Shown piece by piece: positions 5,221 through 22,136 of a stretch of 33,589 bases of DNA (position 1 is its first letter; each line of letters opens with the position of its first letter). This DNA comes from Pontiellaceae bacterium B12219 (GTDB lineage: Bacteria; Verrucomicrobiota; Kiritimatiellia; Kiritimatiellales; Pontiellaceae): positions 1 to 33,589 of the forward strand of contig JARNMJ010000050.1 in assembly GCA_029432795.1 (NCBI GenBank). The letters are read 5' to 3'. The position numbers and the translations under genes were made by a program. The notes under the pieces are model-generated. The model ran no database searches, was not told the DNA's origin, and worked only from the letters and a program-made list of their open reading frames with translations.

Positions 5221-5347
5221 TATCATTTTTCCTTCATTACACCTTTCAATAAAATGCTGAGTACTTCGGTGCTTATTCCGGTCAAAGGCCCCAAATACAC
5301 GCATTAAAACGCTCACAATCGGCATTGCTTTACCGCTCTTCAGATAA

Positions 5348-5377
5348 ATTACAATTAATTTACATCCACATTTACAA
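5348..5377 (-). promoter_or_regulatory. Candidate promoter for the 2659-5220 esterase gene
   Basis: The 205 bases between the two esterase genes include an AT-rich patch. On the minus strand TTGTAA (5372-5377) and TGTAAT (5348-5353) are spaced by 18 bases and would give a leader of about 115 bases before the ATG at 5220. The match is modest. The rest of the gap shows no gene. Confidence 0.25.
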
Positions 5378-5431
5378 AATATCCGCATTAAAGCAAATGG
5401 GTAGACGGTTAATTCACCGGGTTGAAAATAC

Positions 5432-6253
5432 CTAATGCTGAAACTGCTGATCAATAAAATGCATCTGCCGCTGGATCGCATCGTTCCAATAGCCCCACGT
5501 ATGACCGCCGGGCATCTCGGTGTAGCCATGCTTGATCCCTGCGTCCAGCAGTTGCTGGTGCAGCACCCGGTTGACCTCAATAAAAAAGTCTTCGGAACCG
5601 CAGTCGATCGATATGGCAAGCTCGCCATCCTGCAACGCCTTGGCCTGATTGATGACCGTATAGGTTTCCCAGTTTTCCGGATGGGTCTCCACATCACCAA
5701 TCCGCTTTTTTATATCCCACTTTCCGGGAAACGGACGGATATCCACCCCACCGCTGAGCGGCACCGCCACGCTGAACACATCGGGATGGCGAATGGCCAG
5801 AAAAAGGGCTCCATGCCCGCCCATACTGTTCCCGGACAGCGCGCGACAGCTGCGCTCTGCTTTTGTGCGGTAGTTATGATCCATATGCGCCACACACTCT
5901 TTAGCCACAAAGGTTTCATACTTATAGGCCGGATCGACCGGACTGTCAAAATACCAGCTGGTTCTTCCGCCATCAGGACACACAATAATCACACCGTAAG
6001 TATCGGCCAGTGGTTCCACATCGGTCTTATCAACCCATTTCCGGTGCGTATCCCCGGCTCCGTGCAGCAGATACAACACGGGATAACGCTCCGAGCCCGT
6101 TTGATATTCATCCGGCAAAATCAACGTGGCCGGAATTTCCCGTCCCATGATTTCACTTTGAATCATAATGGTTTCCACGCTCGCAGCCCGACCGACACAA
6201 ACAACCAGTACAGCCAGCAGCAGTCCTGTCCAAATCTTACATTGCATCTTCAT
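5432..6253 (-). CDS. Secreted esterase, esterase D / feruloyl-esterase-like family
   Basis: The 273-residue protein has a signal peptide (LLLAVLVVCVGRAAS) and an alpha/beta-hydrolase fold. The oxyanion segment is YPVLYLLHGAGD (near residue 60) and the nucleophile elbow is GNSMGG (near residue 143). A C-terminal MPGGHTWGYWNDAI supplies the His near residue 250, and the acidic residue is probably in DCGSEDFF. This is the Pfam Esterase (PF00756) pattern, shared by esterase D, feruloyl esterases and acetyl xylan esterases. Those enzymes hydrolyse carboxylic esters on sugars. The ATG at 6253 follows GGAG by ten bases. It sits between two sialate-O-acetylesterase-type genes, which points to an ester-decorated substrate. 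The exact acyl group cannot be read from the sequence. Confidence 0.88.
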   Translation of the reverse strand: MKMQCKIWTGLLLAVLVVCVGRAASVETIMIQSEIMGREIPATLILPDEYQTGSERYPVLYLLHGAGDTHRKWVDKTDVEPLADTYGVIIVCPDGGRTSWYFDSPVDPAYKYETFVAKECVAHMDHNYRTKAERSCRALSGNSMGGHGALFLAIRHPDVFSVAVPLSGGVDIRPFPGKWDIKKRIGDVETHPENWETYTVINQAKALQDGELAISIDCGSEDFFIEVNRVLHQQLLDAGIKHGYTEMPGGHTWGYWNDAIQRQMHFIDQQFQH

Positions 6254-6417: not shown

Positions 6418-9400
6418 CTATAATCCTGCAGGAGGCAGAGTCGAATTAGCAGTTCCGCGGAGGTAATAAAATGGTGCCTGCAGCGGATCATCTTCCAGCA
6501 TGATTTCTTTCAGCTTCCCGTCGCCGGTCACATTATAGCGAAAGGGAATCCAGGGACCTGTTACAAGGTTGGTGGAACTGTCTACCGTGTACTGGTGATC
6601 GGCGAGGCTGATGAAACCCAGCAGGATATTTGTGGGGGACACGTCAAATGCTGTGACATCTACTTTTGAAAATGCACGGTCTTCCGCTGTTTTGTAAACC
6701 GCAGTGAGACTGACGTTGCCTGACGGCATGCGCAATGTGGTGCTGGCGGCGTTCACATTGACCACAGTCTGCGTATCGCCGGACCAAACATCAAAAACCT
6801 GACCGGCAGGTGCTTCGGCCGCTTCTATATTAATAATCGAACCGGACTGCGAGGTTCCCCCGCCATAGCCGTTGTTCACAGTGATCGAATAGCTCGTCTC
6901 CGATATTGAGCGGTAGCTGGCCAGCAGATACAGATCATGATCCGGCATTGTAACTGTTGTAGACGACGCATTGGGATTGGCAATCGCGGAGGCAGCACCG
7001 ATCCATCGATCAAAGACCATCCCGCCGGCTGGTGAATCAGCGGTAATTCCGATCGCTGTACCTTCAACCACCTCAGTGGCCGAGCCGGTGCCGGCATAAA
7101 CTTCCAGTTCATAATCGGCATCGGTGCGAAAGGGCGAGGCCGGGAACCCGGCGCGGTTATACAGTTTGTTCCCCCCGACCGGGGCGTTGACATAGCAGTA
7201 ACGTACATAAACGGGATCTGCGACGGATGCAGCGGAGACCAGTACGGTATCGGCATCGATGGTTGCAGTGGCACTGACAAAAACCTTATTCGCCCCGGCG
7301 ATCTCGAAGTTTTCCAATGCACCGGCGGTTTCAACAACCGGATCTTCTCCACTCTTTGTTCCGACCATCAGGCCGCCGTCGGCATGATCAAAAAGGATAC
7401 GTATTTTCGATCCTTCTACAACCGAACCGTAGAACAACGGACTGCTGTAGGGAATCTCATAGCCCAGCTCATTCGCCAGCGCCCAGTGAGCCAGGCGATA
7501 CCCGGGATCCTGCTTATTGGTCGGATGAATATCGTTGTCGTTACCCACATCGATAATGACGGCCATACCGGTATCGGGCTCCGTAATCGAACGTAACTGC
7601 GCTGCACGCAGAATCGGCCAATCAGCGCTGGTGTTAAAGTTGCAAAGCTGAACGGAATAGAAGGAGAAATCATCCTGCGCCCATTTTGAACGCCAGCCCC
7701 GAATGAGGGCCCGCATTTTTAGCTGATAGATATCGCCGTCACCACTGCCGGCATCCTGCTCACCTTGATACCAGATCGCGCCACGCACGCCATAGGGCGC
7801 CATCGGAGCAATCATGGCATTATAGATGTCGTAGTAAGAACTGATCTTTCCGTTCTCAATATTCTGAAGCATGGCGGACAAAGCGGGAACCGCCGCCATG
7901 CCTTCCGGATTTATAAAACGCTGAATCTGCCGTCCGCCCCACGCGGAGAAGAGCAGCCCAACCGGTTCTCCGGTGATGGCCTGCACCTTCTTTGCAAAAT
8001 AATAACCCACTGCGCAGAACTCGCCAGCGACCGCCGGAGTGGAGGACATCCAGCTATAAAGCGTGTCCGGGTCGTCCAGTTCAGAGGAGGATGTATCCAA
8101 CTCAACTTTGACCTGCCGGATCAACGGATAGTTTGCCATCGCGATTTCCGGGAGCGCTCCAATACCTTCAAGGGTCCGCGCCATATTGGATTGACCGGAA
8201 CAGATGTAAACATCACCGAAAACCACGTCTGAAAGCACCACATCAACTTCGTCCGGCGTTGAGACCGTCAGTGTGTGAGCCACACCACCATCACCCGGAT
8301 AGGATCCGATACGCGCCGTCCATTTTCCAGAGCTGTCAGCGGTCGGAGCGGCCACCGTTACGCCATCAAGTTTAACGGTTACCACGGCACCGGCCGGCGC
8401 CGTCCCCCAGACGGGGACATCGATATCGCGTTGCAGTACCATTTGATTCTGGAACATTTTACTCAGGATCAGTTGAGGCGGCGTAACGGTTGAACTGTGG
8501 ATGTCAATTTCCTGATAGACGGTTCCCGAATTCTGACCATCATCCATAAAAATGAATCGAACCTGATCCACATCGCCGGCCAGAACCCCGGCGGAATTGC
8601 TCAGGCTGACTTTCGTTGCTCCGGCGGTGCCACTGGTAAACGGCATATATTCAACCGCTTCCAATAAGGAAAACCCAGTACTGCCCACTTTGCTGACCCA
8701 GACTTCATATTTTTGATTGGCGAGGTTCGCACCGTCGCTTGCCGCACCGGCGAGCGTGGTGATTCCGGTGATATCATATCCGCCCGGATTCAGTTCCGTA
8801 TTCAACGTGAAGGTGTTGGTGGCGGGAAATTGTCCGGTGGAAAAACAGGCGCCGTCCAGGGAGCCATCGTTGAAGCCCGACGCGCCCGTAACCGGTACAG
8901 GAAACTGCATTTCAGACAAGAAGGTTTTCTGTCCGTCGTTAATGTAGTCGTTCGTGCTGACGCTGCTGCTGAAGGCATTGACGTCGAAGTCGTATTCGGC
9001 ATCCACAGCAATGCTGCCGGTTTTGACGCGCAGCGTATCCGGCGCGCCGGATGAATCGGTGTCGACAAATTCAAATCCCCAAACCGAAGGATCAACGCCC
9101 GGTGCGAAGGTCAGCCCGAAATCCGTCAGCGTACCATCCCAGCTCATCACATCCCATTCGCCCTTCAGCGGAGCCCCCAGAAAGTCAACATCAAGCAGTG
9201 CTCCATTGCTGAAGGTGACATTACCAAACCAATCGCCGGAACCCTTATCCGCAACGACAATCGGGGTCAGCCCGCCGCTGTCGATACGCACCTTGAGCGT
9301 GCCTGCGTTCTGAACCCAACGCCCATCAACGGATCCGCTTGTACCGATCCCTATGCTGCTCGCCGCACTGCCGTTGACCGTAAAGGTACAATCGTCATCG

Positions 9401-9954
9401 AGCAAAACGCCGGTCCGGGTAACGAGGGAGCCGCCCGAAATTTCGAAATGGCCGATCCCCCCGGTGCCGATGTGAAGGCTATAGTTGTTAACTCCGCGAG
9501 CGATGCTCATAGCCCCGTTGTTGATTATAAGATTACCGGTGCCGCCACCGAGCCCCAGCTGAATGGCGTTGATGGAGGCTGTCCCTCCATTCATCGTCCA
9601 TGTTCCGGTTTCGCCATTGCGCCCAACGCGGGTGGCGGCTCCCGAGTTGTAGGTGGCGACCAGTGAGCCGCCGGTCTGTTCAAATTCGCCATCGCTCCCC
9701 TCGTAACCAATATGCAATCCCGAGAGGTTGGCAGACGTTCCGACGCTGAGCACGGATTTATCAGATCCCGTCTTATCAATATTCCAGTAGTTGTTTCCTG
9801 CGGCGGGCTCAATATCCCAGTTGGCGGCCGTGATGAAATTATTGTCGTTGAGGTTGTTTTCCCAGTTATACGTTGCGGCACAGGAATCCGTTGCGCTCAG
9901 CAATGCAACAGCCAGGGCCATCCCGCCATAAACCATTTTATTTTCCATCATCAT
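6418..9954 (-). CDS. Large secreted sialate-O-acetylesterase-type protein, five domains
   Basis: The protein has 1178 residues. The ATG at 9954 follows GAGG by five bases; two more ATG codons follow directly and are alternative starts. After a signal peptide (MALAVALLSATDSCA) come five parts. First is the Gly-rich beta-solenoid module (about 27-315). Second is a jelly-roll-like insert (about 320-490) absent from the 2659-5220 protein. Third is the MVLQRDIDVPVWGTAPAG Ig-like segment. Fourth is the SGNH esterase domain with SGQSNM near residue 585, GAIWYQGEQDA near 720 and DIHPTNK near 808. Fifth are two InlB-like repeats (VFDRWIGA and VFDVWSGD), then a tail with the sequence YTVDSSTNLVTGPW that is common at the ends of secreted PVC proteins. 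It is a paralogue of 2659-5220, so two acetylesterases bear the same targeting-like module. The start overlaps the stop of the decayed gene at 9951-10414. Confidence 0.9.
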   Translation of the reverse strand: MMMENKMVYGGMALAVALLSATDSCAATYNWENNLNDNNFITAANWDIEPAAGNNYWNIDKTGSDKSVLSVGTSANLSGLHIGYEGSDGEFEQTGGSLVATYNSGAATRVGRNGETGTWTMNGGTASINAIQLGLGGGTGNLIINNGAMSIARGVNNYSLHIGTGGIGHFEISGGSLVTRTGVLLDDDCTFTVNGSAASSIGIGTSGSVDGRWVQNAGTLKVRIDSGGLTPIVVADKGSGDWFGNVTFSNGALLDVDFLGAPLKGEWDVMSWDGTLTDFGLTFAPGVDPSVWGFEFVDTDSSGAPDTLRVKTGSIAVDAEYDFDVNAFSSSVSTNDYINDGQKTFLSEMQFPVPVTGASGFNDGSLDGACFSTGQFPATNTFTLNTELNPGGYDITGITTLAGAASDGANLANQKYEVWVSKVGSTGFSLLEAVEYMPFTSGTAGATKVSLSNSAGVLAGDVDQVRFIFMDDGQNSGTVYQEIDIHSSTVTPPQLILSKMFQNQMVLQRDIDVPVWGTAPAGAVVTVKLDGVTVAAPTADSSGKWTARIGSYPGDGGVAHTLTVSTPDEVDVVLSDVVFGDVYICSGQSNMARTLEGIGALPEIAMANYPLIRQVKVELDTSSSELDDPDTLYSWMSSTPAVAGEFCAVGYYFAKKVQAITGEPVGLLFSAWGGRQIQRFINPEGMAAVPALSAMLQNIENGKISSYYDIYNAMIAPMAPYGVRGAIWYQGEQDAGSGDGDIYQLKMRALIRGWRSKWAQDDFSFYSVQLCNFNTSADWPILRAAQLRSITEPDTGMAVIIDVGNDNDIHPTNKQDPGYRLAHWALANELGYEIPYSSPLFYGSVVEGSKIRILFDHADGGLMVGTKSGEDPVVETAGALENFEIAGANKVFVSATATIDADTVLVSAASVADPVYVRYCYVNAPVGGNKLYNRAGFPASPFRTDADYELEVYAGTGSATEVVEGTAIGITADSPAGGMVFDRWIGAASAIANPNASSTTVTMPDHDLYLLASYRSISETSYSITVNNGYGGGTSQSGSIINIEAAEAPAGQVFDVWSGDTQTVVNVNAASTTLRMPSGNVSLTAVYKTAEDRAFSKVDVTAFDVSPTNILLGFISLADHQYTVDSSTNLVTGPWIPFRYNVTGDGKLKEIMLEDDPLQAPFYYLRGTANSTLPPAGL

Positions 9955-10414
9955 TTTTTCCTCAGCTGTACATTTCCGACCGAATGGAAACAGACTGCAT
10001 AAACGTGATCATTCTCCACCCTGACACAAAATGTCAGCAAACCGGTTACCTTCAGATTTTCCAGGACCACTCGCTGAGGAGCCGATGTGGCCTCCTGATT
10101 GCTCCACAGCACTTCCTGCTTCACATCGCCGCCCCACAGACGGAGCGTCACCAAATTGGGCTTCTCCGGATCACATTTCAGCGTAACGGCTAAACCGCCC
10201 TCCACCTGAACCATACGCGGCCCGGCTCACCCATACCGCCCTTAATCAGCGGCGCCAGATTAGCCTCCACGTTATGCAGTGACTCCAATGCCGCATTCCT
10301 GAAAACCACAGAATCCAGCAGGTCGGTGGGAGCCAATGCTGCATGGCTGTTTAAACCGTCAGCTGAAGCGGAAAAAACAATCCCTAAAACAAACCGTCGA
10401 AATTGAATGCTCAT
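9951..10414 (-). pseudogene. Decayed secreted-protein gene, frameshifted and shortened
   Basis: The ATG at 10414 overlaps the TAA of the GH95-like gene by one base (TAATG), as in a coupled operon gene. It begins a signal-peptide-like stretch (MSIQFRRFVLGIVFSAS) followed by DLLDSVVFRNAALESLHNVE. The frame ends at 10190, but the next frame continues without a break of sense at about 10211. There VQVEGGLAVTLKCDPEKPN leads to VTLRLWGGDV and ends at 9951. Segments of the form CDPEKPN...VTLRLWGGD occur in N-terminal regions of large secreted glycosidases such as GH127/DUF6805-type proteins, from memory. Only about 150 codons remain, so most of the gene is gone. It could instead be two tiny real genes, but the smooth join and the coupled start favour decay. 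Confidence 0.55.
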
Positions 10415-12678
10415 TAATTTGATTTCACTCCCCAACGCCAGTCGGCATGGTATATTTTATCGACCGCGCCGATTGTATACGATCCGTTATACGCGGCATC
10501 AGAAACAAGCACCGTCGCACCCTTCGGGATCGTCAGCTCGACCAGACCGTCACCCAGCTGCTTCACGTTTTTTGCATCCAGGCCCGTCACTTTGATTTCG
10601 CCCTGAATACCGGTTTGCAGAAGGCATGGCGCTCCGGCCAGACTCTTGATTGAAACAAATTTGGTCTTCCCATCGGCCCGAACCGCACTCACCAGAAAAG
10701 CTCCTTCCGTGCGGAGATCCGCAAAGGATACATCCGGCCATTTCTCAGGAATGGCGGGGAATACCACGATTTTATCGTTCCAGCTCTGGATCAGCATATC
10801 CTCAATCGAACGGGCCGCCGCCAGCGGTGTTTCAATGACCGGAGAACCCTCTTTATAAAAGGTGTTCGGCAGGATCTTATCTTCAAAGAAATCCTGCAGA
10901 CGCTGTTCCGCCATGTTGCCGTTGCCGAAGAGCGAGAACATGGAGGACGAACCGGTGTAGGAATAACCTGCCAGCGCCTCCGGCATGCTCTGCCAATGCA
11001 ACAGCGATTTCATCGCCAGTTCGCGTTCGGCGGGATCATCCAGATCCATCGTGCTGAGCGGATAGATCATCATGAGGTGCGAATAGTGCCGATGCGATTT
11101 GGCGTAAGGCATATCCTTACCGATCATGAAGCCGGTTTCATCAACCGGATACGGTGTAAGACGGGTCAGGATATCTTCCCACGTCGGCAGCAGTGGATCG
11201 TCGAGGTCCAACGTTTCGCACGATTCAATCAACGTCTGACACCCCCAGCGCAGCAGTGACAAATCATACGTACAATCGCGCACATTTCCATATTCGGGCG
11301 ACTGCGTAACCGGCAGGTGCAGCGTTCCGTCGTCCCCTTCAATCAGGAAATGGCGGTAATAGTTCACAGACCGTCTGAGCAACGGGAAGATTTGTTCCTC
11401 CAGCATTACTTCATCCATCGTATAACGATACTGCATATAACAGTTATGCATGGCCCAAAGCAGGTTGCCGGTGGAAAGAATGCGCTTCTGGTTCGGATCG
11501 AGCGGATCACCCATCGGCGCAAGAAGATCCTGTCCGGAAACGGTATTGATCGCCGCCGAATCGGCGCGCATAGGTGCGGGCACATTCATCACGAGGTTGT
11601 CTCGATATTTATGAAGGATGTCCACCAAACCAATCGACAGTTCCGGATGGTTGGCCGGAAGCATATGAGAATAAGCCAATTGCACATTCAGGTTCCACCA
11701 TAGCGCCGGCCAGCCGGTCGGTTGCAGCCAGACGCCCTGGTTGTCGGCCAGCAATTTTCCGCCCTTGGTGGCGCAGGCCATTTTATAGTGCTGAATCCAG
11801 AAAAAACTTTCCATGCGTGCATCCGGCAGGGAAACAAAACTCTTCGGATAAAACTGATGCCACCATACGCGATGGCTCTTCAAGAGTTGTTCAATTGGCC
11901 GACCGCTTTCTGACGTCAGAACTGTAGCGGCCTCGTTCTTTGCCGTCGTTTCCGGGAACGTATGTGCCATGCTCGCAAACAGGGTCTTCGTTTTACCTTT
12001 TTCCTTCACGGTCCAGGCCGTCGCGGTCTGTCCGCCGCCGGTCAACGCCTGCGTGCAGATGTCGAAATCCTTAAACTGCTCAACCACCGGCTCCGGATTA
12101 CCGTCATATGCAGGACGATATTCCTTCCCGCCTTTCCGTTTGCCCTTGATGCGCGGGCAGAAAGCTTCTTCCGGATGCCATTCATAGGCAAATCCAACCT
12201 CGCTCAAATCAGCGGTCGTTTGAACTACCAGCAGATTTATTTCAGAATGGATAAAAGCGAGAAGTTCAAGATCACCCCGATCCGTGGTGATCGTTCCGGT
12301 GATCTCCGCATCCCACAGGTTCAGGCGCAGGTCGCAACCGATAATTTTTCCCACCGTATTCAGCGTGAAATAACCCACCGGCAAACGCGATGAATCGGGA
12401 AGCACTTCACCGGTCGCATTCTTGCCCGATACCGTGCGGTGTTCCTGCACATCGCCGCGCCCGATCTGAATGGTCAGTTGCTTTTCCGAAGTCTGGAAAA
12501 TCATACTCCCCATCACCCCGTTACCGATAAACGGCGCTTCGTCCCACAGCTGAGGCACTTTTTTGAAAACCAGATCCTGCTGCCCGATGTATTCCGGCCA
12601 ATCCACAGACACCGTTTCAGCGAAGCCTGTGAAAACACAAATAAACCATATCCAAATTATCCCTGTATATCTATGCAT
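10414..12678 (-). CDS. GH95-like secreted glycoside hydrolase, copy A
   Basis: I choose the ATG at 12678 (754 residues) because GGAG lies six bases before it and the product then begins with a signal peptide (YTGIIWIWFICVFTGFAE). An ATG at 12699 in frame lacks a good ribosome binding site. The N-terminal beta domain carries APFIGNGVMGSMIF, matching the PIGNGRLG motif of GH95. The (alpha/alpha)6 part has WNLNVQLAY (Asn329 and Asn331 match the paired Asn of GH95), SPEYG (Glu462 fits the catalytic acid) and SHRHYSHLMMIYPL. The usual DGNFG motif with the catalytic Asp is replaced by ETPLAA (Glu616). GH95 enzymes act on alpha-L-fucose or alpha-L-galactose ends. A close paralogue is at 19835-22117. 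The specificity is uncertain because of the altered motif. Confidence 0.82.
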   Translation of the reverse strand: MHRYTGIIWIWFICVFTGFAETVSVDWPEYIGQQDLVFKKVPQLWDEAPFIGNGVMGSMIFQTSEKQLTIQIGRGDVQEHRTVSGKNATGEVLPDSSRLPVGYFTLNTVGKIIGCDLRLNLWDAEITGTITTDRGDLELLAFIHSEINLLVVQTTADLSEVGFAYEWHPEEAFCPRIKGKRKGGKEYRPAYDGNPEPVVEQFKDFDICTQALTGGGQTATAWTVKEKGKTKTLFASMAHTFPETTAKNEAATVLTSESGRPIEQLLKSHRVWWHQFYPKSFVSLPDARMESFFWIQHYKMACATKGGKLLADNQGVWLQPTGWPALWWNLNVQLAYSHMLPANHPELSIGLVDILHKYRDNLVMNVPAPMRADSAAINTVSGQDLLAPMGDPLDPNQKRILSTGNLLWAMHNCYMQYRYTMDEVMLEEQIFPLLRRSVNYYRHFLIEGDDGTLHLPVTQSPEYGNVRDCTYDLSLLRWGCQTLIESCETLDLDDPLLPTWEDILTRLTPYPVDETGFMIGKDMPYAKSHRHYSHLMMIYPLSTMDLDDPAERELAMKSLLHWQSMPEALAGYSYTGSSSMFSLFGNGNMAEQRLQDFFEDKILPNTFYKEGSPVIETPLAAARSIEDMLIQSWNDKIVVFPAIPEKWPDVSFADLRTEGAFLVSAVRADGKTKFVSIKSLAGAPCLLQTGIQGEIKVTGLDAKNVKQLGDGLVELTIPKGATVLVSDAAYNGSYTIGAVDKIYHADWRWGVKSN

Positions 12679-12717
12679 TAAAGTCTCCAGTATTTTCATT
12701 TTCTATTTACGGGGAAA

Positions 12718-12736
12718 CTGTACGCTCCACGTACAG
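12718..12736. promoter_or_regulatory. Compact hairpin between the lyase and GH95-like copy A genes
   Basis: Perfect 7-base arms CTGTACG and CGTACAG enclose a five-base loop. It lies 36 bases past the stop of the lyase gene and 40 bases before the next start. On the minus strand it is followed only by TTTCCCC, so it may be a weak terminator, an mRNA stabiliser or an operator. Confidence 0.4.
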
Positions 12737-12772
12737 ATGGATCACCCTCAAACTTTCTTTTCGATCGGGTAA

Positions 12773-15700
12773 TTACTCAGAATGAGCCTCCTGCCGGATG
12801 AGCTTGCCATCCCTGAACTCCTGAATCATCACCTTGATGTCCTGCCCTTTTTCCAAGCCCTGGAAACTTATTTTGTGCGTGCGACCGTCTTTCAGCTCAA
12901 CAGTCAGCTGATTCGCGGACTGTGCCGTGACCTTTTCGACGATACTCTCTGTTTCGAACGGCTCAATCAAAGTCAGATACTGCGCCTGTTTTCCGGTGGT
13001 GCGGAAACTGAGCGATTTGCGGCGCTGCGCCTCATTCCCCAGCGGATAGTCGCCGCCCACCTGCGCTTTAAACCGAACAGCGTTGAGTGAGCTCAGATCC
13101 AACGTAATCGTTCCGTCGACATTTTCTTTTACCGGATTGGCCGGCACAGAAGCAGCGAACGGTTTACCGGCAATTTTAACCGGCCCGCCATAGTAGTCGA
13201 CGCCGCTTTCCGGATCGTTACGGATCTGGTCGAACGACAGGCCCAGATCGCTCAATGCAATTTCGTTGCCGTCTTTTGTCACAATCACGGGGTTGCCCCA
13301 GAACAGGGTTTTCTTGGCGTTGGCACGCGCGTCAGTTTTCGTAACGAGCGTCAGGGTTTTCATCCCCGCAACCGAAACATCAATTTCGTCACGACCCAGC
13401 ACCCATGCACCGAACTTTCCTTCGACGAGCGTCTGATCATCGCCTTTGACGGTGTACCAGAACTTACGGTTCACGCGGTGCGATTCCGGCAGGGCCCCGA
13501 TCATCACTTCACGGTCTCTCGGCCAGGCGGAATAGACATCCATTTTCAGTACGCCGTCTTCTCCGTAAATGCGGGTCCCTTCATTATCGGCCCCGTCCCC
13601 ATACTTCGTTTCGAAGCTGACTTTGGCGGTGCCTTTGGCATCATACCAGCTGCAGTCGGTAATCAGTTGCGCCGCCAGAATAGGATCCGGATTCATCTGC
13701 TCCGTATGACGCACCGGCTCGCTCCCCTGCTCGGCTTCCAACCCCTGGAAACCTTTAATGTTGAACAGGCAGTCATAGGTGTGCTCTTCATCACCGGACA
13801 GATAGTCGGCCAGCACAAAATAGTCGTCCGTCATCAGCATCATCCGGCGCTGGGTGACGCGGTCGGTCGACCACTCCCCGATGGAGCCGTAAACCGGCTC
13901 GTTTTCGGGCAGTGGCATATAGCGCCCTTCGGCCCAGCACTTTTCCTGGAACGTACCATCGAAGGCCTCATAATTCAGGCCTCCATACGGCGGGTTGGAC
14001 CAGCGCGCTTTGGTTTCAACCGCCGTCACCTGCATCAGCTCATTGGTGCTGAAGAAGAGCTTACTGCTTTCCACGGCTTCCTGCTGCTTCATGTCGACGA
14101 CAACCATATTGTGCGGTAACGAGGTCTGCACAAAGAAGGCATACATAAAATTCGGATAGCCATACCAGATGTGCTCCGGATTATAGAAACTGCGACCGTA
14201 ACGCATCATGGAGTTCAGTGCCGTGCGGTCAAAATGTCCGTGATAGCCGCCGTGCGATCCATATTTCAGGACGGCCTGAATGCGCTCGGCCGGCTCCTCC
14301 TGCGTGGAGCGCAGCATGGCCTGTCCGGCATTATCCGCAAACGCGGATCCAACCCCCAGTTCGGGCGTATTCTCCGGCAGATCTACCACCCCATACAACA
14401 GGTCGCGCTGGTCCAGATTTTTAATGATCGCCGCATAGGTTGGATCGCGGTAGACGTAATAGGCAATCTCGTAATAGTTTTCCTTAAACTTGTTTTCCAG
14501 CGAATCGTTGTTCGCCACCATCACGCCGTTGTAGTCGATGAAGGGCGGCAGGGCATCCCACATATTTTTAATCTTTGTGAATGGTTTATGCACCGGACCC
14601 CACTTTTGGAACGGCTTGCCATAGACCTGTTTTTTTCGCTCCTCAACGCCAACCGAGAAGACGTTGTATTCCTTGGAATAGGTCGCCGGAAATGCGGCAT
14701 CGACATAGTCGTAGCCAAACGGCTGAAGCGCCAGCGCGAGCTGCGTGAATTCGCTGGCCACCCAGGTATTGTAGCTGATGGAACATTCATACCACCAGCC
14801 GTCGGACATCACCCCATTGCGGAACTGATCCACCATCCCGCCGGAGCCGGTAATAAACCGGTCCGCCGTATGCAGATCCTGGATGGCCAGGGCGGAAAAC
14901 GCCGCGCCGGTCAGCATCGAAACGCGCCAGTTACCCGTGATGCACCAGTTCAGCGAGGAGTCGATGATTTTCTGATAGAGCCGGAACGTATGCGCAATGT
15001 TCGTGTGGTCTTCTTCCGATAACGCAGCGGAGTTATAGATCAGGTCGTAGGCAATCGCCATACGCTGAAAAAAGTGCCCTTCCTGAACCAGGCTGGCATT
15101 ACAACCCTGATTGGTTTTCGGATAGCCTTCTTCCGGATCGGACAGTTGCCGAAGAAACAGCGCCACCTTTTCGGCATATTTCTCATCGCCGGTCAACTGA
15201 TACGCAATCGCCGCCGCCTCTACATTTTTCTCTTCATAGGTCGAATAGAGATAAACCTGATTGTTTGAACGGGAAATCCCGTCTTTGTTGAGCGCCGGAA
15301 CCGTCCAGTTATCCGCCTTGGCGATATATTCCTGCGCAGCCTCCTTCGCCCATTCCACGGTTTCCGCTTTTTTGCGGATGGCATCCCAGCCCTCTTTGGT
15401 GAACAGGATATACGGATGCTCCAGATAACTGACGGTGGTGTATTCAATCGTGCCGGCATCTTTGCCGTTGGCCGAGGCACGGATCAGCTGCTTTTCATGG
15501 CCGCCCGGTGCCACACGCGAAGAGACCGCCACATTGACCTGGCAGGTTGCGCTTTCTCCGGGCGCCAGCGTCAGCTCCGCCGGAACAATCTCGGTGGTCA
15601 TCGTTTCGCGGCCGCGCGACATATAAGAGAGATCAATCAGCTGTTCTACGTCGGTACAGTTTGAAAGCTCCAGCGTGTAGGTGACTGTTTCACCGCCTTT

Positions 15701-16267
15701 GGCCGAAACCGAACGGATTTCACTGTCGAGACTAACGATGTCCGCCTTGACCACACGCGGATTTTCCAGCTTCACGTTGGCTTTCGATCCATCCGCCATC
15801 GCCGCTTTCAGACGGAATGTTTTGATGGTTTCGAGCAGAACCACGCGGCGCTGCAGGTCGAAGGAGTCGAACGGAACCGTGACCGTATGCCATCCCTTGC
15901 CCGCCACGCTGAGTTTGGAAGAAAAGGTATCGATGACGTCTTCGCTGCCTCCGTTGACCTTGCGCGGCACAATGTCCAGCTCGGCTACCGCCTTCAGCGG
16001 CTTGTCGTTGGGAAGGTATAGGTCGAAGCGCACCCCGTACTGGCCGCACCAGTTGCCGGAACCATCGTGGGCCGTACCAAGCCCGACACGATGCCAGCCC
16101 TTTTCTCCATCAGGATAGGTGTAGGAAGCAACGCCCGGCACCGTTAAGGAAGCCTCTCCCGTATTGGAGACCTCATTGAGCCCGTTCCATTCCTTCAAAT
16201 TGGTAAAATCAGCCCATACTGCCTGAACCAGACCAAGCACACAGAACCCTATTGTCTTCTTCATCAT
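12773..16267 (-). CDS. Secreted heparinase II/III-like polysaccharide lyase, full length
   Basis: The 1164-residue protein begins with a signal peptide (IGFCVLGLVQAVWA). Residues about 20-165 look like a carbohydrate-binding beta-sandwich, and about 170-285 like an Ig-type domain (TYTLELSNCTDVEQLIDLS). Residues about 285-640 form an alpha-helical toroid starting HPYILFTKEGWDAIRKK. Residues about 640-900 form the heparinase II/III beta-sheet domain with YGSHGGYHGHFDR near 668 and an SLPHNMVVVD segment. A further beta region follows to the end. The His- and Tyr-rich HGGYHGHFDR block is the recognisable active-site region. Lyases of this superfamily split uronic-acid polymers by beta-elimination (heparin, alginate, ulvan and others), and the sequence does not identify which. 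AAGGA lies ten bases before the ATG at 16267. A paralogue lacking the first 230 residues is at 30601-33492. Confidence 0.9.
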   Translation of the reverse strand: MMKKTIGFCVLGLVQAVWADFTNLKEWNGLNEVSNTGEASLTVPGVASYTYPDGEKGWHRVGLGTAHDGSGNWCGQYGVRFDLYLPNDKPLKAVAELDIVPRKVNGGSEDVIDTFSSKLSVAGKGWHTVTVPFDSFDLQRRVVLLETIKTFRLKAAMADGSKANVKLENPRVVKADIVSLDSEIRSVSAKGGETVTYTLELSNCTDVEQLIDLSYMSRGRETMTTEIVPAELTLAPGESATCQVNVAVSSRVAPGGHEKQLIRASANGKDAGTIEYTTVSYLEHPYILFTKEGWDAIRKKAETVEWAKEAAQEYIAKADNWTVPALNKDGISRSNNQVYLYSTYEEKNVEAAAIAYQLTGDEKYAEKVALFLRQLSDPEEGYPKTNQGCNASLVQEGHFFQRMAIAYDLIYNSAALSEEDHTNIAHTFRLYQKIIDSSLNWCITGNWRVSMLTGAAFSALAIQDLHTADRFITGSGGMVDQFRNGVMSDGWWYECSISYNTWVASEFTQLALALQPFGYDYVDAAFPATYSKEYNVFSVGVEERKKQVYGKPFQKWGPVHKPFTKIKNMWDALPPFIDYNGVMVANNDSLENKFKENYYEIAYYVYRDPTYAAIIKNLDQRDLLYGVVDLPENTPELGVGSAFADNAGQAMLRSTQEEPAERIQAVLKYGSHGGYHGHFDRTALNSMMRYGRSFYNPEHIWYGYPNFMYAFFVQTSLPHNMVVVDMKQQEAVESSKLFFSTNELMQVTAVETKARWSNPPYGGLNYEAFDGTFQEKCWAEGRYMPLPENEPVYGSIGEWSTDRVTQRRMMLMTDDYFVLADYLSGDEEHTYDCLFNIKGFQGLEAEQGSEPVRHTEQMNPDPILAAQLITDCSWYDAKGTAKVSFETKYGDGADNEGTRIYGEDGVLKMDVYSAWPRDREVMIGALPESHRVNRKFWYTVKGDDQTLVEGKFGAWVLGRDEIDVSVAGMKTLTLVTKTDARANAKKTLFWGNPVIVTKDGNEIALSDLGLSFDQIRNDPESGVDYYGGPVKIAGKPFAASVPANPVKENVDGTITLDLSSLNAVRFKAQVGGDYPLGNEAQRRKSLSFRTTGKQAQYLTLIEPFETESIVEKVTAQSANQLTVELKDGRTHKISFQGLEKGQDIKVMIQEFRDGKLIRQEAHSE

Positions 16268-16283
16268 AATTTTCTTATCCTTC

Positions 16284-18617
16284 TTAAAACTTCAATATTT
16301 TGCGTTCTCCGCACTTCAGGTGCAACGGTTGCACACTCCCGCGACAACGCACTTGAAAAACCCCGTCTCTCGTGGCTTCAATTTCAGCCACAACGAAATC
16401 CTCCGACCATTTCAAATTTACAATAGCGCCGTCCCGTGTCCGCAAGCCGCGCACTTCACCCTCCGGCCAGGCGTTTGGAAGCGCCGGAAGCAACCAGAGC
16501 ACCCGTTCGCCGCTTTCCAGTTTCATCTGGCTCTGCAGCAGCATCGTGCAGACCCCGCTGGTGTACCCGAAGTTGCCATCAATCTGGAACGGCGGATGCA
16601 TATCAAACAGATTCGGGTTAATCAGTTTCGACACCAGCGTCCGTATATTTCCATAGGCCGCTTCCGGACGCATCAGACAGGCTTCGATATTGATCAGCCA
16701 GGCACGGCTCCAGCCCGTATGCCCGCCGCCGTTTGCCAGTCGGAAGTCCAGCGAGTTCTGAATCGCTTTGACCATTTCGGTATCTTCAATAACGTTGTAC
16801 TGGCGCCCCGGGAAAAAGCCGTAGGCGTGGCTGACATGGCGGTGTCCCGCATTATTTTCCTTGAACGGCTCACGCCACTCCAGCAGGCGGCCATCTTCAC
16901 CAATTTTTCCCTCTCCAAGCTTTGGAAGAACGTCCTTTGCCTTTCTAACCTGATCATTTTCAATGCCCAATTCCTCGGCGGCTTCAACCAGATCCGAGAG
17001 CGATTCCCAGGCAATCATCAGATCGTGCGTATTGCCGCAGGAAATGGAGGCCTTCAGCTCCTCATCGCCCTCCATATAGATAAACTGGTTTTCCGGTGAC
17101 GTTCCCGGTCCCGTGATCCACTCACCGGATGCTTCATCAAAGTGAATCCAGCTCAGGATAAAGCGGGCATTGTTCTGAATCAGTGGCCAGGCCATGTTTT
17201 CCAGAAACTCACGGTCGCCGCTGTAACGATAATGCTCCATCAGGTGGGCATTGATCCACGCACCGTTCATCAGACTGGCCGCCCACATGGCGTTACCGCC
17301 GGAAAACGTTGTGTTTTTCCAGGCATTGATTGCATGCCCGCAGGTGAACCCTTCATAACCCAACGCATTGGCGAATGCCTGCCCCGCCGGCTGCATATCA
17401 CGCACCAGCTCGAGCATCGGCATGTGCAGGTCCCCCAGCCCCGTCACTTCGGCCGGCCAGTAGTTCATCTGCAGATTGATGTTCAGGTGATAGTCGCCCG
17501 ACCACGGGGCAACCAGCCCTTCGCTCCAGATGCCCTGCAGGTTATTCGGCAGACCGGTTTCGCGGTTGCTGGCCACCAGGGCATAGCGACCAAATTGAAA
17601 GAGCAATGTTTCAAGCTCCGGATCAGCTCCGCCGTTTTTATACTTCTTAATCCGTTCAGCGGTCGGCAGCCAGGCCACCTTTGGATCGCTCGTGCCCAGA
17701 TTGATCTCAAACCGCTCCATATAGGAACGCATCTCCGCCTGACCTTCGGCCAGCAACCCGTTCCAATCACTGGAAACGCCTTTGGCAAAATCTGCCTCAA
17801 TCTGCCCTTCCCAATCGATGAGCGGCTGATTCGGGTCGTCGTTATTATAATCCGTCCGCGCAGTAAAAAAGATCAGGGCTTCCTGTCCGCCTGTAACCCT
17901 CAGCGCACCCGCTTCCTCAGCGACATCTACGCCATGAATGAGCAGATGGCTTTGATATTTCGTGCCTCCGGTCGCCGCCTGCCCGCTCAGGATCAGTCGA
18001 TTTCCTTGAACCGAAACTTCATCGCGCGGATGCGTCAGCTCCACCGTAAAATCGAGTCCGCTTTTCCGTGTGGTCGAGATACGCAGGACAATCACATCGC
18101 GCTCCCGCAAGGCAATGGATTCGCACAGAATGACGCCATCCTTGTAAACAGCCTCTGAACGGTTCAGACCGGTGGAGAGATCGAGTTCATTCAGGATCGA
18201 TTCCGGTTCACCCACGCCGTTATGTATCAGTCTGGCCATCCCGGCAAATTCATAACTCTGCGGACGCCAAATCGGATCATCCGGATTCTTCGGCTGCAGG
18301 AGTTCTTTCGTCCAAAGCGCCTCGGCTTCTGCATAATTTCCGTCCACCGCCAAAGCCCGGACCTTTTCCATGACATCCGCGGCGTTGTCCGGATATTCGA
18401 CTTCCTGACGCGCCCAGATGGAATGCTCATTGAGATACAGTTTTTCTTCAGGAAACCCGCCGAGGGTCAGCAGACCGAGCCGTCCGTTACCGATTGGATA
18501 CCCTTCGTCCCATGCTGCAGCACCCTGATTGGAACGAACGATCAACTCCGCCTGAGCAAAGACACCTGCCGCCGAAACCAGCCCTATCATTCCGACCATC
18601 AACTTTATTTTATTCAT
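16284..18617 (-). CDS. Glycoside hydrolase family 95 (alpha-L-fucosidase type)
   Basis: The frame is open to 18758, but the ATG at 18617 has GAGAGGG just upstream and gives a signal peptide ([17 protein letters not shown]), so I use 777 residues. The N-terminal beta-sandwich starts with the [22 protein letters not shown] block of GH95. All catalytic landmarks of the family are visible. [14 protein letters not shown] carries the paired Asn379 and Asn381, SPENQF carries the acid Glu509, [13 protein letters not shown] is present, and DGNFG carries Asp680. GH95 members are inverting exo-enzymes removing terminal alpha-L-fucose or alpha-L-galactose, often from xyloglucan, mucin-like or algal glycans. 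The gene starts 80 bases after the GH43 stop and ends 17 bases before the lyase start. Among the three GH95-type proteins here this is the only one with an intact catalytic set. Confidence 0.93.
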
Positions 18618-18696
18618 AACCCTCTCTCCACACTCAACGATTTTCTGCTTTTCCCTCCCCGGCGCCTGTCGGCAAAGGAAACGCCGTGATGGAAAT

Positions 18697-19599
18697 TTAT
18701 GTTTTAATACGAATATCGCCGCAAACCTCTTCAATCTCAATAAAGGTCGGCCGCTCATCCGGGGTCTTGTTGGGACTGTGGAAGGTCAACATGAGTTGCT
18801 CATCAAACGTACGGAAAATCATTCCATGCCCGCCGTCTTTCTTCCATAACGGTTCCTCTTCCTGAATCCAAGGTCCGCTGATGGTTCCCGATTCCGACCA
18901 AGCAAAGCCCATGGCATAACCGGAGTCGCCCGTGCTGGACCAAAGCATGATGAGTTTTCCATCGGCCATTCGGTGCACAAACGGACCGTCTGTAACATAG
19001 GCGGGCATACGATGCCGTTCCCCATCCCCCTCTTCCGACCAGGTCTTGAGCGGACGCACCCAGGAAGCTTCCGTCGCATCAAAAAGAAAGACCGGTTTTC
19101 CATCGGCCGTTTTTAAATCGGGCGAGAGCGGCATGGCGCAGATGGAGCCATTGTGAATCTGCGTCCACTCATGACAAAAAACAATCCATGGCTTGCCGTC
19201 GTCATCCACAAACAGCGTACCGTCGAGGCACTCCCAATTGTGCGGCGTCACCGGTCCATCTGTGAGCGGTTCATAGGGGCCCTCGATGGAATCCGAAACC
19301 AGAATCTGCGTTCCGCGATACCGCTTGTCCGCTTTGAAAGTCGCAAACATATAGAACTTGCCATTGTAGGCGTGCACTTCCGGCGCCCAATAGTTTTTCG
19401 TGGCCCAGAAATTTTCCGAAGGTCGGAACGCCGCGATCGGCCCCTCCCACTCCTCCAGATCGTTGCTCTTATAACAATCAAATCCGGTACCCGGCGGCAG
19501 CCAGCAGTTTTTATCGGTCGTGCCGAACATGTAATACATGCCCTCTTCTTTCATTGTCAGAATGAAGGGATCACGGATCTGAATTTCGTTCGTTTTCAT
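18697..19599 (-). CDS. Glycoside hydrolase family 43, cytoplasmic
   Basis: The 300-residue protein is a single five-bladed beta-propeller domain with no signal peptide, unlike nearly all its neighbours. IRDPFI near the start supplies the general base Asp10. [11 protein letters not shown] (about 124) supplies the second Asp, and HGMIF near residue 258 supplies the conserved His. At the usual catalytic-acid position the sequence is TDGPFVHR (Asp204) rather than the EGP form with Glu. GH43 enzymes release arabinose, xylose or galactose from side chains. The cytoplasmic location suggests that it finishes imported oligosaccharides. AAGGA lies five bases before the ATG at 19599. The 235 bases upstream hold remnants of another gene rather than a clear promoter. 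Confidence 0.88.
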
Positions 19600-19675
19600 G
19601 TGTATCCTTTTTACTTAGGTTCTAATTGGTAAAATTTTAAATTACGGAATTGTGATGCATACGCACCAAACCGAA

Positions 19676-19815
19676 GTTCGTTGCTTCCACCCAATAGGTC
19701 AGGGCCGGATCAGCAAATACGATCGAAAGTAACGCTCATCAGCAGCCGCTGGATAGACGGCTCCATGCGGACCCAACGCCCTATGAATCAGGCCTAAGCG
19801 TCGAAACCGTTTCCA
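19676..19815 (-). pseudogene. Remnant(s) of a secreted-protein C-terminal tail
   Basis: The 235-base gap between the GH95-like copy B and GH43 genes contains coding debris. On the minus strand about 19679-19722 reads ADPALTYWVEAT. This nearly equals ADPTLTYWVEAT in the tail of the beta-helix protein (about 22330-22370), and the match is clear at the DNA level. Near 19790-19815 the minus strand reads FWKRFRRL, like HWKRFLRL at the very end of that same protein. The order of the two pieces is reversed relative to the intact gene, so this looks like rearranged or repeated tail fragments. No open frame of useful length joins them. Confidence 0.55.
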
Positions 19816-19834
19816 AAAGCTTTCAAACAGTGTG

Positions 19835-22117
19835 TTAGTCACTTAATCCCCAACCCCGATTGAGATGATATTTTTTATCAACCGCCCCGATGGTATACGG
19901 ACCTTTATAAGCCGCATCATAAATAACCACCGATTTTCCCTTCGGAATCGCCAGTTCAATCAAACCATTTCCCAGTTGTTTCACGTCTTTTGCATCAAGT
20001 CCCTTCACGCTGATTTCGCCTTCGATACCGGTTTGCAGAAGACAAGGCGTACCGGCCAGACTCTCAACAGAAATAAAGGCGGTCCTTCCACTCTTCCGAA
20101 CCGCACTCACCAGAAAGGCCCCCTCTGTGCGAAGATCGGCGAAGGAGACGTCCGGCCATTTGGACGGAATGGCGGGGAACACCACGATTTTATCGTTCCA
20201 GCTCTGGATCAGCATGTCCTCGATCGAACGGGCGCCAGCGGGCGGTGTTTCCAACACCGGAGACCCTTCGGTGTAGAACGTGTTCGGCAGTACCTTGTCG
20301 TCAAAGAAATCCTGCAGGCGCTGTTCCCCCATATCGCCATCGCCGAAGAGCGAAAACATTGAAGAAGAGCCGGTGTAGGAATAGCCCTGCAAGGCTTCCG
20401 GCAGACTCTGCCAATGCAACAGCGATTTCATTGCCAGTTCCCGTTCTGCGGGATCATCCAGATCCATAGTGCTCAGCGGATAGATCATCATCAGATGCGA
20501 ATAGTGGCGGTGCGATTTTGCGTAAGGCTTGTCCTTCCCGATCATGAAACCGGTTTCATCCACCGGATAGGGCGTGAGTCGATTCAGCATATCTTCCCAC
20601 GTCGGCAGCAACGGATCATTGATATCCAGAATTTCACAACACTCAATCAGCGTTTCACATCCCCAGCGCAACAGGGCCAGATCATAGGTGCAATCCTCCG
20701 CTTCCCCGTATTCCGGCGAACTGGTTTCCGGCAAATGAATCATTCCATCTTCGCCTTCTATCATGATGTGGCGGTAAAAGTTGATAGAGCGCTTCAGCAG
20801 CGGGAAGATCTTTTCTCGCAGCAGTTCTTCATCCATCGTATAGCGATACTGCATGTAGCAGTTATGCATCGCCCAGGTCAGGTTGCCGGTGGTCACACCG
20901 CGCCGCTGTTTCGGATCGTTCGGGTCGGCAACCGGCGAGATAAGATCCTGGCCGGAAACCACATTGATCGCCGCCGAATCGTGGCGCATGCCTTCGGGCA
21001 CATTGTTCGCCAGATTATCGCGATATTTCCAGAGCTGGTTGATCAGCCCCTCCGACAGTTCCGGATGATTGCCCGGCAGCATGTGGGAATAGGCGAGTTG
21101 AATATTGAGGTTCCACCAACAGGCCGGCCAGCCGGACGTGGAATTCATCCACACGCCCATATTATCTGCCAACAGGGTTCCGCCCTTCGTGGTACTCGCC
21201 ATCTTGTAATGCTGAATCCAGAGAAAGCTTTCCATTCGCGCATCGGGGAGCGAAACAAAGCTCTTCGGATAGAATGCATGCCACCAGGCACGATGCCCTT
21301 TCAGCAGCTCTTCCAGCGATTTTTTCTGTCCGAAGATGACGTCGGCAGATGCATGGTGCTGCGCATTTTCATCCGGATAGGTATGGCCGACGCTTGCCAG
21401 CAGCGTTTTCGTATTTCCATCTTCTTCAATGCTCCAGACCGTAGCCGTCTGACCGCCGCCGTGGAGCTTCTGGATGCAGGACGTATAGTCCTTGTCTTCT
21501 TTCATTTCCGGAGGCGGGTTTCCGCAGTATTCCCACTTATGACTCTCTCCATGAATCTTGCGCCCGCCGCGTGTTCTCGGACAAAAGGCTTCCTCCGGAT
21601 GCCACGTATAGTCGAAATCGGCGTCACCCTTATCCGCAACCGTTTTAACCACCAGCAGGTTTTTCTCCGAATGGATAAATGCCAGAATATTGAGTTTGCC
21701 GCGATCCGTGGTAATGGTTCCGGAAATTTCCGCATCCCATAGATTCAGGCGCAGGTTGCACCCGGTGATTTTTCCCACTGTATCCAATGTGAAATAACCC
21801 ACCGGCAGGCGCGATGAATCCGGCAGCGTATTACCCATCGCATGTTTTCCAGACTGCGAGCGATGTTCCTGCACATCGCCCCGGCCGATCTGAATAGTGA
21901 GTTGGTTTTCCGAGGTTTGGAAAATCATCGACCCCATCACGCCGTTACCGATAAACGGGGCTTCAGTCCAAAGCTGCGGCAACGCAGTAAAATAGAGATC
22001 CTGTTTCGCCATATAGGAAGGCCAATCCACATTCACCTTCACCGCGGCAGCTCCGCTCATGGTCAACCCCATTAACAGTCCGGCGACCAAAACAGTCCGC
22101 CAGTATATTCCTCTCAT
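19835..22117 (-). CDS. GH95-like secreted glycoside hydrolase, copy B
   Basis: I use the ATG at 22117 (760 residues), with GAGAGGAA immediately upstream and a signal peptide (VLVAGLLMGLTMSGAAA); an ATG at 22132 is a weaker alternative. The product is collinear with copy A (10414-12678) along its whole length. It has APFIGNGVMGSMIF, WNLNIQLAYSHMLPGNHPEL, SSPEYGEAEDCTYDLALL, SHRHYSHLMMIYPL and the closing segment GPYTIGAVDKKYH. The catalytic Asn pair and the acid Glu of GH95 are kept, while the DGNFG motif is again replaced, here by ETPPAG. Long stretches of near-identical DNA with copy A (for example around 20168-20220 and 10751-10803) indicate duplication within the locus. A 15-base palindrome lies 20 bases upstream of the start. 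Confidence 0.82.
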   Translation of the reverse strand: MRGIYWRTVLVAGLLMGLTMSGAAAVKVNVDWPSYMAKQDLYFTALPQLWTEAPFIGNGVMGSMIFQTSENQLTIQIGRGDVQEHRSQSGKHAMGNTLPDSSRLPVGYFTLDTVGKITGCNLRLNLWDAEISGTITTDRGKLNILAFIHSEKNLLVVKTVADKGDADFDYTWHPEEAFCPRTRGGRKIHGESHKWEYCGNPPPEMKEDKDYTSCIQKLHGGGQTATVWSIEEDGNTKTLLASVGHTYPDENAQHHASADVIFGQKKSLEELLKGHRAWWHAFYPKSFVSLPDARMESFLWIQHYKMASTTKGGTLLADNMGVWMNSTSGWPACWWNLNIQLAYSHMLPGNHPELSEGLINQLWKYRDNLANNVPEGMRHDSAAINVVSGQDLISPVADPNDPKQRRGVTTGNLTWAMHNCYMQYRYTMDEELLREKIFPLLKRSINFYRHIMIEGEDGMIHLPETSSPEYGEAEDCTYDLALLRWGCETLIECCEILDINDPLLPTWEDMLNRLTPYPVDETGFMIGKDKPYAKSHRHYSHLMMIYPLSTMDLDDPAERELAMKSLLHWQSLPEALQGYSYTGSSSMFSLFGDGDMGEQRLQDFFDDKVLPNTFYTEGSPVLETPPAGARSIEDMLIQSWNDKIVVFPAIPSKWPDVSFADLRTEGAFLVSAVRKSGRTAFISVESLAGTPCLLQTGIEGEISVKGLDAKDVKQLGNGLIELAIPKGKSVVIYDAAYKGPYTIGAVDKKYHLNRGWGLSD

Positions 22118-22136
22118 AACTTCCTCTCCCATATTG

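Follow-up and report, generated by a model that had tools for sequence, protein, structure and literature searches.

According to the available text of PMC12282258, N423 is the proposed base of the GH95 enzyme AfcA, with D766 as its activator and E566 as the acid. For BT0984 from family GH139, the same text gives N412 as the proposed base, N729 in place of D766 and D723 as the activating residue. In the GH65 hydrolase FjGH65A, Glu472 is the acid and Glu616 the base, and both Gln mutants have less than 0.1% activity (PMC8626586, part available to us). Asp766 is shifted relative to GH65 according to Nagae 2007, as cited in the accessible part of PMC8395109. Here, we compare with these systems two GH95-like genes, copies A and B, from a 33,589-nucleotide stretch of DNA of Pontiellaceae bacterium B12219, which is referred to as the window.

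The two GH95-like copies and their predicted fold

The main genes of the window are transcribed from the minus strand and flanked by two LacI-type genes. The set in between encodes SASA esterase-like proteins, an esterase, a large lyase-like protein, GH95 and GH43 (Table 1). The positions assigned to the open reading frames in a previous sequence-only reading hold for copy A and the canonical GH95, while the end given for copy B (22117) is a later in-frame Met and the reading frame extends to 22132.

Table 1. Positions of genes and active-site residues in the window
Feature	Position	Strand	Remarks
GH95-like copy A	10414..12699	-	761 aa, intact ORF
GH95-like copy B	19835..22132	-	765 aa, intact ORF
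Canonical GH95	16284..18758	-	PF22124 440.6 bits, PF14498 124.4 bits; start in sequence-only reading 18617
Large heparinase/alginate-lyase-like protein adjoining copy A	12773..16267	-	weak sub-threshold Pfam matches DUF4962, Alginate_lyase, Hepar_II_III_C
GH43 family enzyme	18697..19599	-	PF04616 134.5 bits
Copy A N336-L-N338, GH95 Asn pair	11686..11694	-	hhalign
Copy A E469, general acid column	11293..11295	-	Glu in 108/108 GH95-like
Copy A Y579, replaces GH95 stacking Trp	10963..10965	-	Tyr in 102/108 GH95-like; Trp in 18/21 GH95-type
Copy A E617, replaces GH95 His	10849..10851	-	Glu in 105/108 GH95-like; His in 15/21 GH95-type
Copy A E623, replaces GH95 catalytic Asp	10831..10833	-	Glu in 108/108; hhalign 6/6
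Copy B E622 (E617 of copy A)	20267..20269	-
Copy B E628 (E623 of copy A)	20249..20251	-

Both copies exceed the curated Pfam cut-offs for PF22124 (27 bits) and PF21307 (27.6 bits), copy A with 107.6 and 34.9 bits and copy B with 113.8 and 32.9 bits, respectively. The N-terminal domain PF14498 is not listed for copy A and stays with 15.5 bits below its cut-off of 27.7 in copy B. Judged by eye, the N-terminus of copy A looks like a signal peptide. The two proteins are 74% identical over 734 columns and appear as sisters in our tree (87). The ratio dN/dS between them is about 0.19 (0.211/1.114, NG86), with dS near saturation. Copy B shares 22% identity over 288 columns with the canonical GH95 protein.

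An AlphaFold2 model of copy A based on 36 sequences (mean pLDDT 90.5, pTM 0.92) matches the GH95 structures 2rdy (Z 34.9, rmsd 2.5 over 650 residues), 7kmq (Z 34.5, rmsd 2.9, 650 residues) and 4ufc (Z 34.3, rmsd 2.5, 646 residues), the GH65 hydrolase 7fe3 (Z 33.4, rmsd 2.9, 581 residues) and the GH139 structure 9hyq (Z 28.5, rmsd 3.6, 607 residues). Z values for the GH95 structures and 7fe3 lie within about 1.5 of each other. Foldseek listed GH95 first (E 4e-39), then GH139 (1e-24) and GH65 (6e-22).

Active-site columns and relation to GH95, GH139 and GH65

Conservation was assessed in an alignment of 108 GH95-like proteins (16 from the B12219 genome and related genomes, 92 from 80 loci) and 21 GH95-type sequences, from which two matches shorter than 600 aa were left out. 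The GH95-like set was picked by similarity to copy A and is thus representative of the clade rather than of GH95 relatives at large. In the canonical GH95, the sequence-only reading had named N379, N381, E509 and D680 (numbered from the Met at 18617) as the catalytic set, and each of these residues is confirmed. Its statement that both copies keep the Asn pair and the acid Glu and lack DGNFG agrees with BLASTP, MAFFT and six of six hhalign runs. The hhalign runs also align E469 with the acid and N336/N338 with the Asn pair, and the Glu of the copies (E623 in copy A) is placed on the canonical Asp by all three methods. GNF, which follows the catalytic position, is absent from both copies, as had been noted. 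The second Asn is present in 108/108 GH95-like proteins and the first in 102/108, the other six having Asp. HRH is likewise kept in 108/108, and copies A and B retain the HRHxSH motif of GH95 with H536 and H541, respectively. The other active-site residues of copy B are N341/N343, E474 and Y584.

The catalytic-Asp column is occupied by Asp in 18, by Glu in two and by a gap in one of the 21 GH95-type sequences. Given Glu in 108/108 GH95-like proteins, the exchange is no chance event. It had been proposed to predate the duplication of A and B, and it is indeed older, not only than the duplication but also than the whole family. Two further exchanges present in both copies had gone unmentioned: Trp is replaced by Tyr, and His by Glu in a column six residues before that of the catalytic Asp. 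Three of the 108 GH95-like members (L007, L023 and L028) lack E617 and keep E623; they are natural variants that bear on the role of the base. Two GH95-type proteins with Glu for Asp retain GN or AN: L030 with EGNF is an intermediate and sister of the GH95-like clade, and L038 is an otherwise canonical GH95.

In an unrooted tree of 71 sequences and 677 columns, calculated after removal of five partial or poorly aligned sequences, 37 GH95-like sequences cluster together (UFBoot 91, rising to 100 with L030 added) and 14 GH139-type sequences form a clade of their own (UFBoot 100). The GH95-like group is therefore a well-supported clade of its own, probably set apart from classical GH95, and the earlier proposal of a distinct, conserved group beside a normal GH95 finds support, also from Glu in 108/108 members. 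With GH95 (AfcA 2eab, Xac1774 7kmq, BACOVA_03438 4ufc, FucOB 7znz) the copies have in common the three-domain fold, the Asn pair, the acid Glu and HRHxSH. They differ in the exchanges of Asp to Glu, His to Glu and Trp to Tyr, in the loss of GNF and in their probably separate clade. As the catalytic Asp was looked for and is absent, the clade should not be classed as ordinary GH95.

GH139 (BT0984 9hyq, 9hmb; a 2-O-methyl-fucosidase) resembles the copies in its related fold and acid Glu; it likewise deviates at the GH95 Asp and carries a carboxylate six residues upstream. In 14 GH139 sequences, the catalytic-Asp column contains Asp in six, Asn in three, Glu in one and a gap in four. GH139 differs, however, by an adjacent Gln-Asn instead of Asn-x-Asn, by the retained Trp, by the lack of HRH and by its own clade. 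The GH139 signature of adjacent Gln-Asn and an Asp six residues before Asn/Asp is absent from the copies, which have NLN and Glu. An equivalence of GH139 Asp723 and E617 was rejected: in profile alignments E617 stays unaligned in five of six runs and meets a Phe in the remaining one, the spacing of six being the sole agreement. Nor was the GH139 Asp placed on the GH65 base in any of six GH139-GH65 alignments.

GH65 hydrolases (FjGH65A 7fe3, human PGGHG 9sd4) resemble the copies in having Glu both as acid and in the column of the general base, whereas identity in the structural alignment is about 12% and FWDxD takes the place of the Asn pair. From 12 GH65 loci, 11 were aligned (three hydrolase-like and eight others; L163 was left out). 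In L153, the base follows the acid by 144 residues (473/617), the same spacing as between Glu472 and Glu616 of FjGH65A. Twelve hhalign runs (two GH95-like alignments, two GH65 sets, three modes) placed E617 on the general base of GH65 hydrolases in 12/12 profile alignments and E469 on the GH65 acid in 11/12. Canonical GH95 brought a His onto the GH65 base in 6/6 runs and its acid came to lie one column off in 6/6, so the column matches are inexact. Judged from these sequence alignments, E623 is at the position of the GH95 Asp and the second Glu, E617, at that of the GH65 base. In our reading, the clade is placed between GH95, GH139 and GH65.

Possible catalytic mechanism

Most likely, members of the clade work as inverting (alpha/alpha)6 alpha-glycosidases. 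We tentatively propose, at a little under an even chance, that the copies are secreted, competent inverting exo-alpha-glycosidases with E469 as acid and E617 as base aided by E623 and N338. Glu469 would thus serve as general acid, and water would be activated at a rebuilt base site in which N338 is kept, Glu623 stands for the GH95 Asp and Glu617 is added. E617 would take the base role with the help of E623 and N338, and the chemistry would then be closer to GH65/GH15 than to the Asn-Asp relay of GH95. Against this proposal, E617 is missing in 3/108 members and E623 in none, which favors E623 as the essential partner. The sequence-only reading had derived an altered mechanism from the Asp to Glu exchange. 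This exchange alone does not imply it, because the otherwise canonical L038 also has Glu; His to Glu617 and Trp to Tyr provide the better argument. Since Tyr takes the place of the stacking Trp and Glu that of His, the sugar in subsite -1 should differ from plain alpha-L-fucose. Our guess is that an alpha-linked residue, substituted or acidic, from glycans carrying sulfate or uronate is the most likely candidate. If E617 is the working base, the clade would show how carboxylate and amide bases interconvert within one fold, and comparison would offer a direct test of the uncommon mechanism with Asn as base that has been proposed for GH95.

The invariance of N338 speaks against E617 as base, as it is expected of a GH95-type Asn base. 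Together with invariant E623 (both 108/108) it fits a clade that has a distinct substrate and follows ordinary GH95 chemistry, with Asn338 as base, Glu623 as its activator and Glu617 engaged only in sugar binding. This is a sizeable possibility, though we would not call it probable. It gains from the occurrence of the Asp to Glu exchange in canonical L038 and in intermediate L030, which keeps EGNF, and from the variation of the catalytic-Asp column in GH139, where BT0984 has Asn and retains the Asn base (PMC12282258, accessible text). A mere swap of Asp and Glu, however, leaves unexplained why GNF is lost and why Glu617 coincides with the GH65 base column in 105/108 members. That the copies are pseudoenzymes or glycan-binding proteins without turnover appears improbable, since conservation across phyla extends to the acid, the Asn and both glutamates of the base site and dN/dS between the copies is about 0.19. 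In its favor, the acid is missing from a GH139 homologue of solved structure that was inactive, as stated in the part of PMC12282258 at hand.

Assignment to another named family, GH139 or GH65, is very improbable despite structural matches to both. Weak matches to DUF5703_N (PF18961) in 4/16 GH95-like members (best 3e-7) would argue for GH139, but copy A reaches only 13.3 bits with a cut-off of 26.7, copy B is not listed, and GH139 forms its own clade. For the GH65 catalytic domain PF03632, neither copy has a match at E<=1, and one of 16 relatives has one at 1e-4. NCBIfam offered no better-fitting family, with no match for either copy, and a PDB profile search retrieved GH95 and GH139, with weaker matches to (alpha/alpha)6 proteins, GH65 among them. 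As far as sequence comparison goes, no other Asp of the copies takes the catalytic position and no different known family accommodates them, the two outcomes that would have spoken against the sequence-only reading. Returning to E617 as base, a bolder and rather doubtful extension would make the clade an unassigned GH family in which a Glu base of GH65/GH15 type occupies a GH95-type pocket along with the Asn pair. Such a family would connect GH65 (clan GH-L) to GH95/GH139 as a missing link and, in gut Bacteroides, would account for a so far undescribed exo-glycosidase step of heparan sulfate degradation.

Distribution and genomic surroundings

The B12219 genome (4.75 Mb, 273 contigs, 96% complete) contains 19 PF22124 matches, 12 of them strong (353-577 bits, canonical GH95) and seven weak (72-115 bits, GH95-like). 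Pipelines using GH95 Pfam models would score the clade as GH95 fucosidases, in this genome 7/19 GH95-domain matches, and fucosidase counts in such genomes may thus be inflated. Matches of at least 245 bits were present in 11 of 58 related genomes, one being a fragment. When named genomes were scanned with a profile built from 16 members, at least 551 confirmed stretches were obtained. The best 80 loci among these (best-segment identity 40-71%) include Streptomyces, Nonomuraea, Amycolatopsis, Lentzea, Paenibacillus, Bacteroides, Phocaeicola, Alistipes, Melioribacter, Planctomycetota, Verrucomicrobiota, Hydrogenedentota and others. Glu in the E623 column occurs in Actinomycetota, Bacillota, Bacteroidota, Planctomycetota, Verrucomicrobiota and other phyla. 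Actinobacterial loci (L042, L046, L053, L057, L061, L063, L064, L069, L079, L081, L096, L102) contain two GH95-like genes, in many cases arranged in tandem, which makes duplication a common event in this family. The clade is real, ancient and widespread and apparently uncharacterized: literature and PDB searches retrieved no characterized member. The NCBI product name "glycoside hydrolase family 95-like protein" is already attached to WP_055278190.1 from Bacteroides finegoldii, a homologue from the same clade that is 42% identical to copy A and shares the ESGPVIETPLS motif with it. The name is a label only and is also carried by some Rhizobium matches of about 24% identity.

Two large proteins encoded at 2659-5700 and 6418-9954 in the window have a common architecture of a SASA acetylesterase domain and divergent InlB B-repeats. 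The lyase-like protein next to copy A (PDB match 8bdd, E=3e-6) is 68% identical to a second one at 30601-33492, which is probably truncated at the contig end. Paired SASA/InlB, GH95-like and lyase-like genes suggest repeated local duplication. The lyase-like proteins have six matches in the B12219 genome, including the window protein itself, are barely recognized by Pfam and possibly constitute an undescribed lyase family. In two related genomes, G005 (contig C2) and G001 (contig C33), a homologue is situated at most about 10 kb from the GH95-like orthologue.

Elsewhere in the B12219 genome, three GH95-like genes reside on contig C218 among GH29, sulfatases, GH43 and a GH141-insertion-domain protein in a fucoidan-like island, and a tandem GH95-like pair adjoins GH28 on contig C255. 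A tally of 67 neighbor proteins from 19 non-actinobacterial loci gave five sulfatases, four GH29, three heparinases and three GH88. Actinobacterial loci were only sampled because neighbor calls in these high-GC loci were unreliable, with many antisense frames. The genomic surroundings suggest glycans that are acidic or contain fucose as targets. Deduction of the substrate from neighbors was rejected, as the genes occur in varied settings (a heparan-sulfate PUL, a fucoidan-like island, a GH28 pair and an alpha-galactosidase locus).

In B. finegoldii L119, the GH95-like gene is flanked by two HepC lyase genes and followed downstream by SusC/D, a DUF4995/GH88 protein, a third HepC, a sulfatase, ROK and MFS. 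In the PDB, the third HepC matches heparinase III 5jmd with 1432 bits and the sulfatase matches 5g2v with 1164 bits; we take these entries to be BT4657 and BT4656, respectively. The locus parallels the B. theta heparan-sulfate PUL, for which the available text of PMC9067506 does not mention GH95. In B. finegoldii, a heparan-sulfate-type PUL thus includes a GH95-like gene together with an additional gene of heparinase III type (L119:17665-24586), and it is possible that this pair accounts for an undescribed step of heparan sulfate use. Homologues of the HepC profile occur in 5/83 sources, all Bacteroidota (L043, L055, L080, L091, L119), and HepC directly adjoins the GH95-like gene in L043, L080 and L119. 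A DUF3604/Tat-signal protein (L119:37029-38657) sits at the place of the N-sulfatase predicted in the accessible part of the B. theta review, going by a deduced gene order, and is kept at 78% identity in L080.
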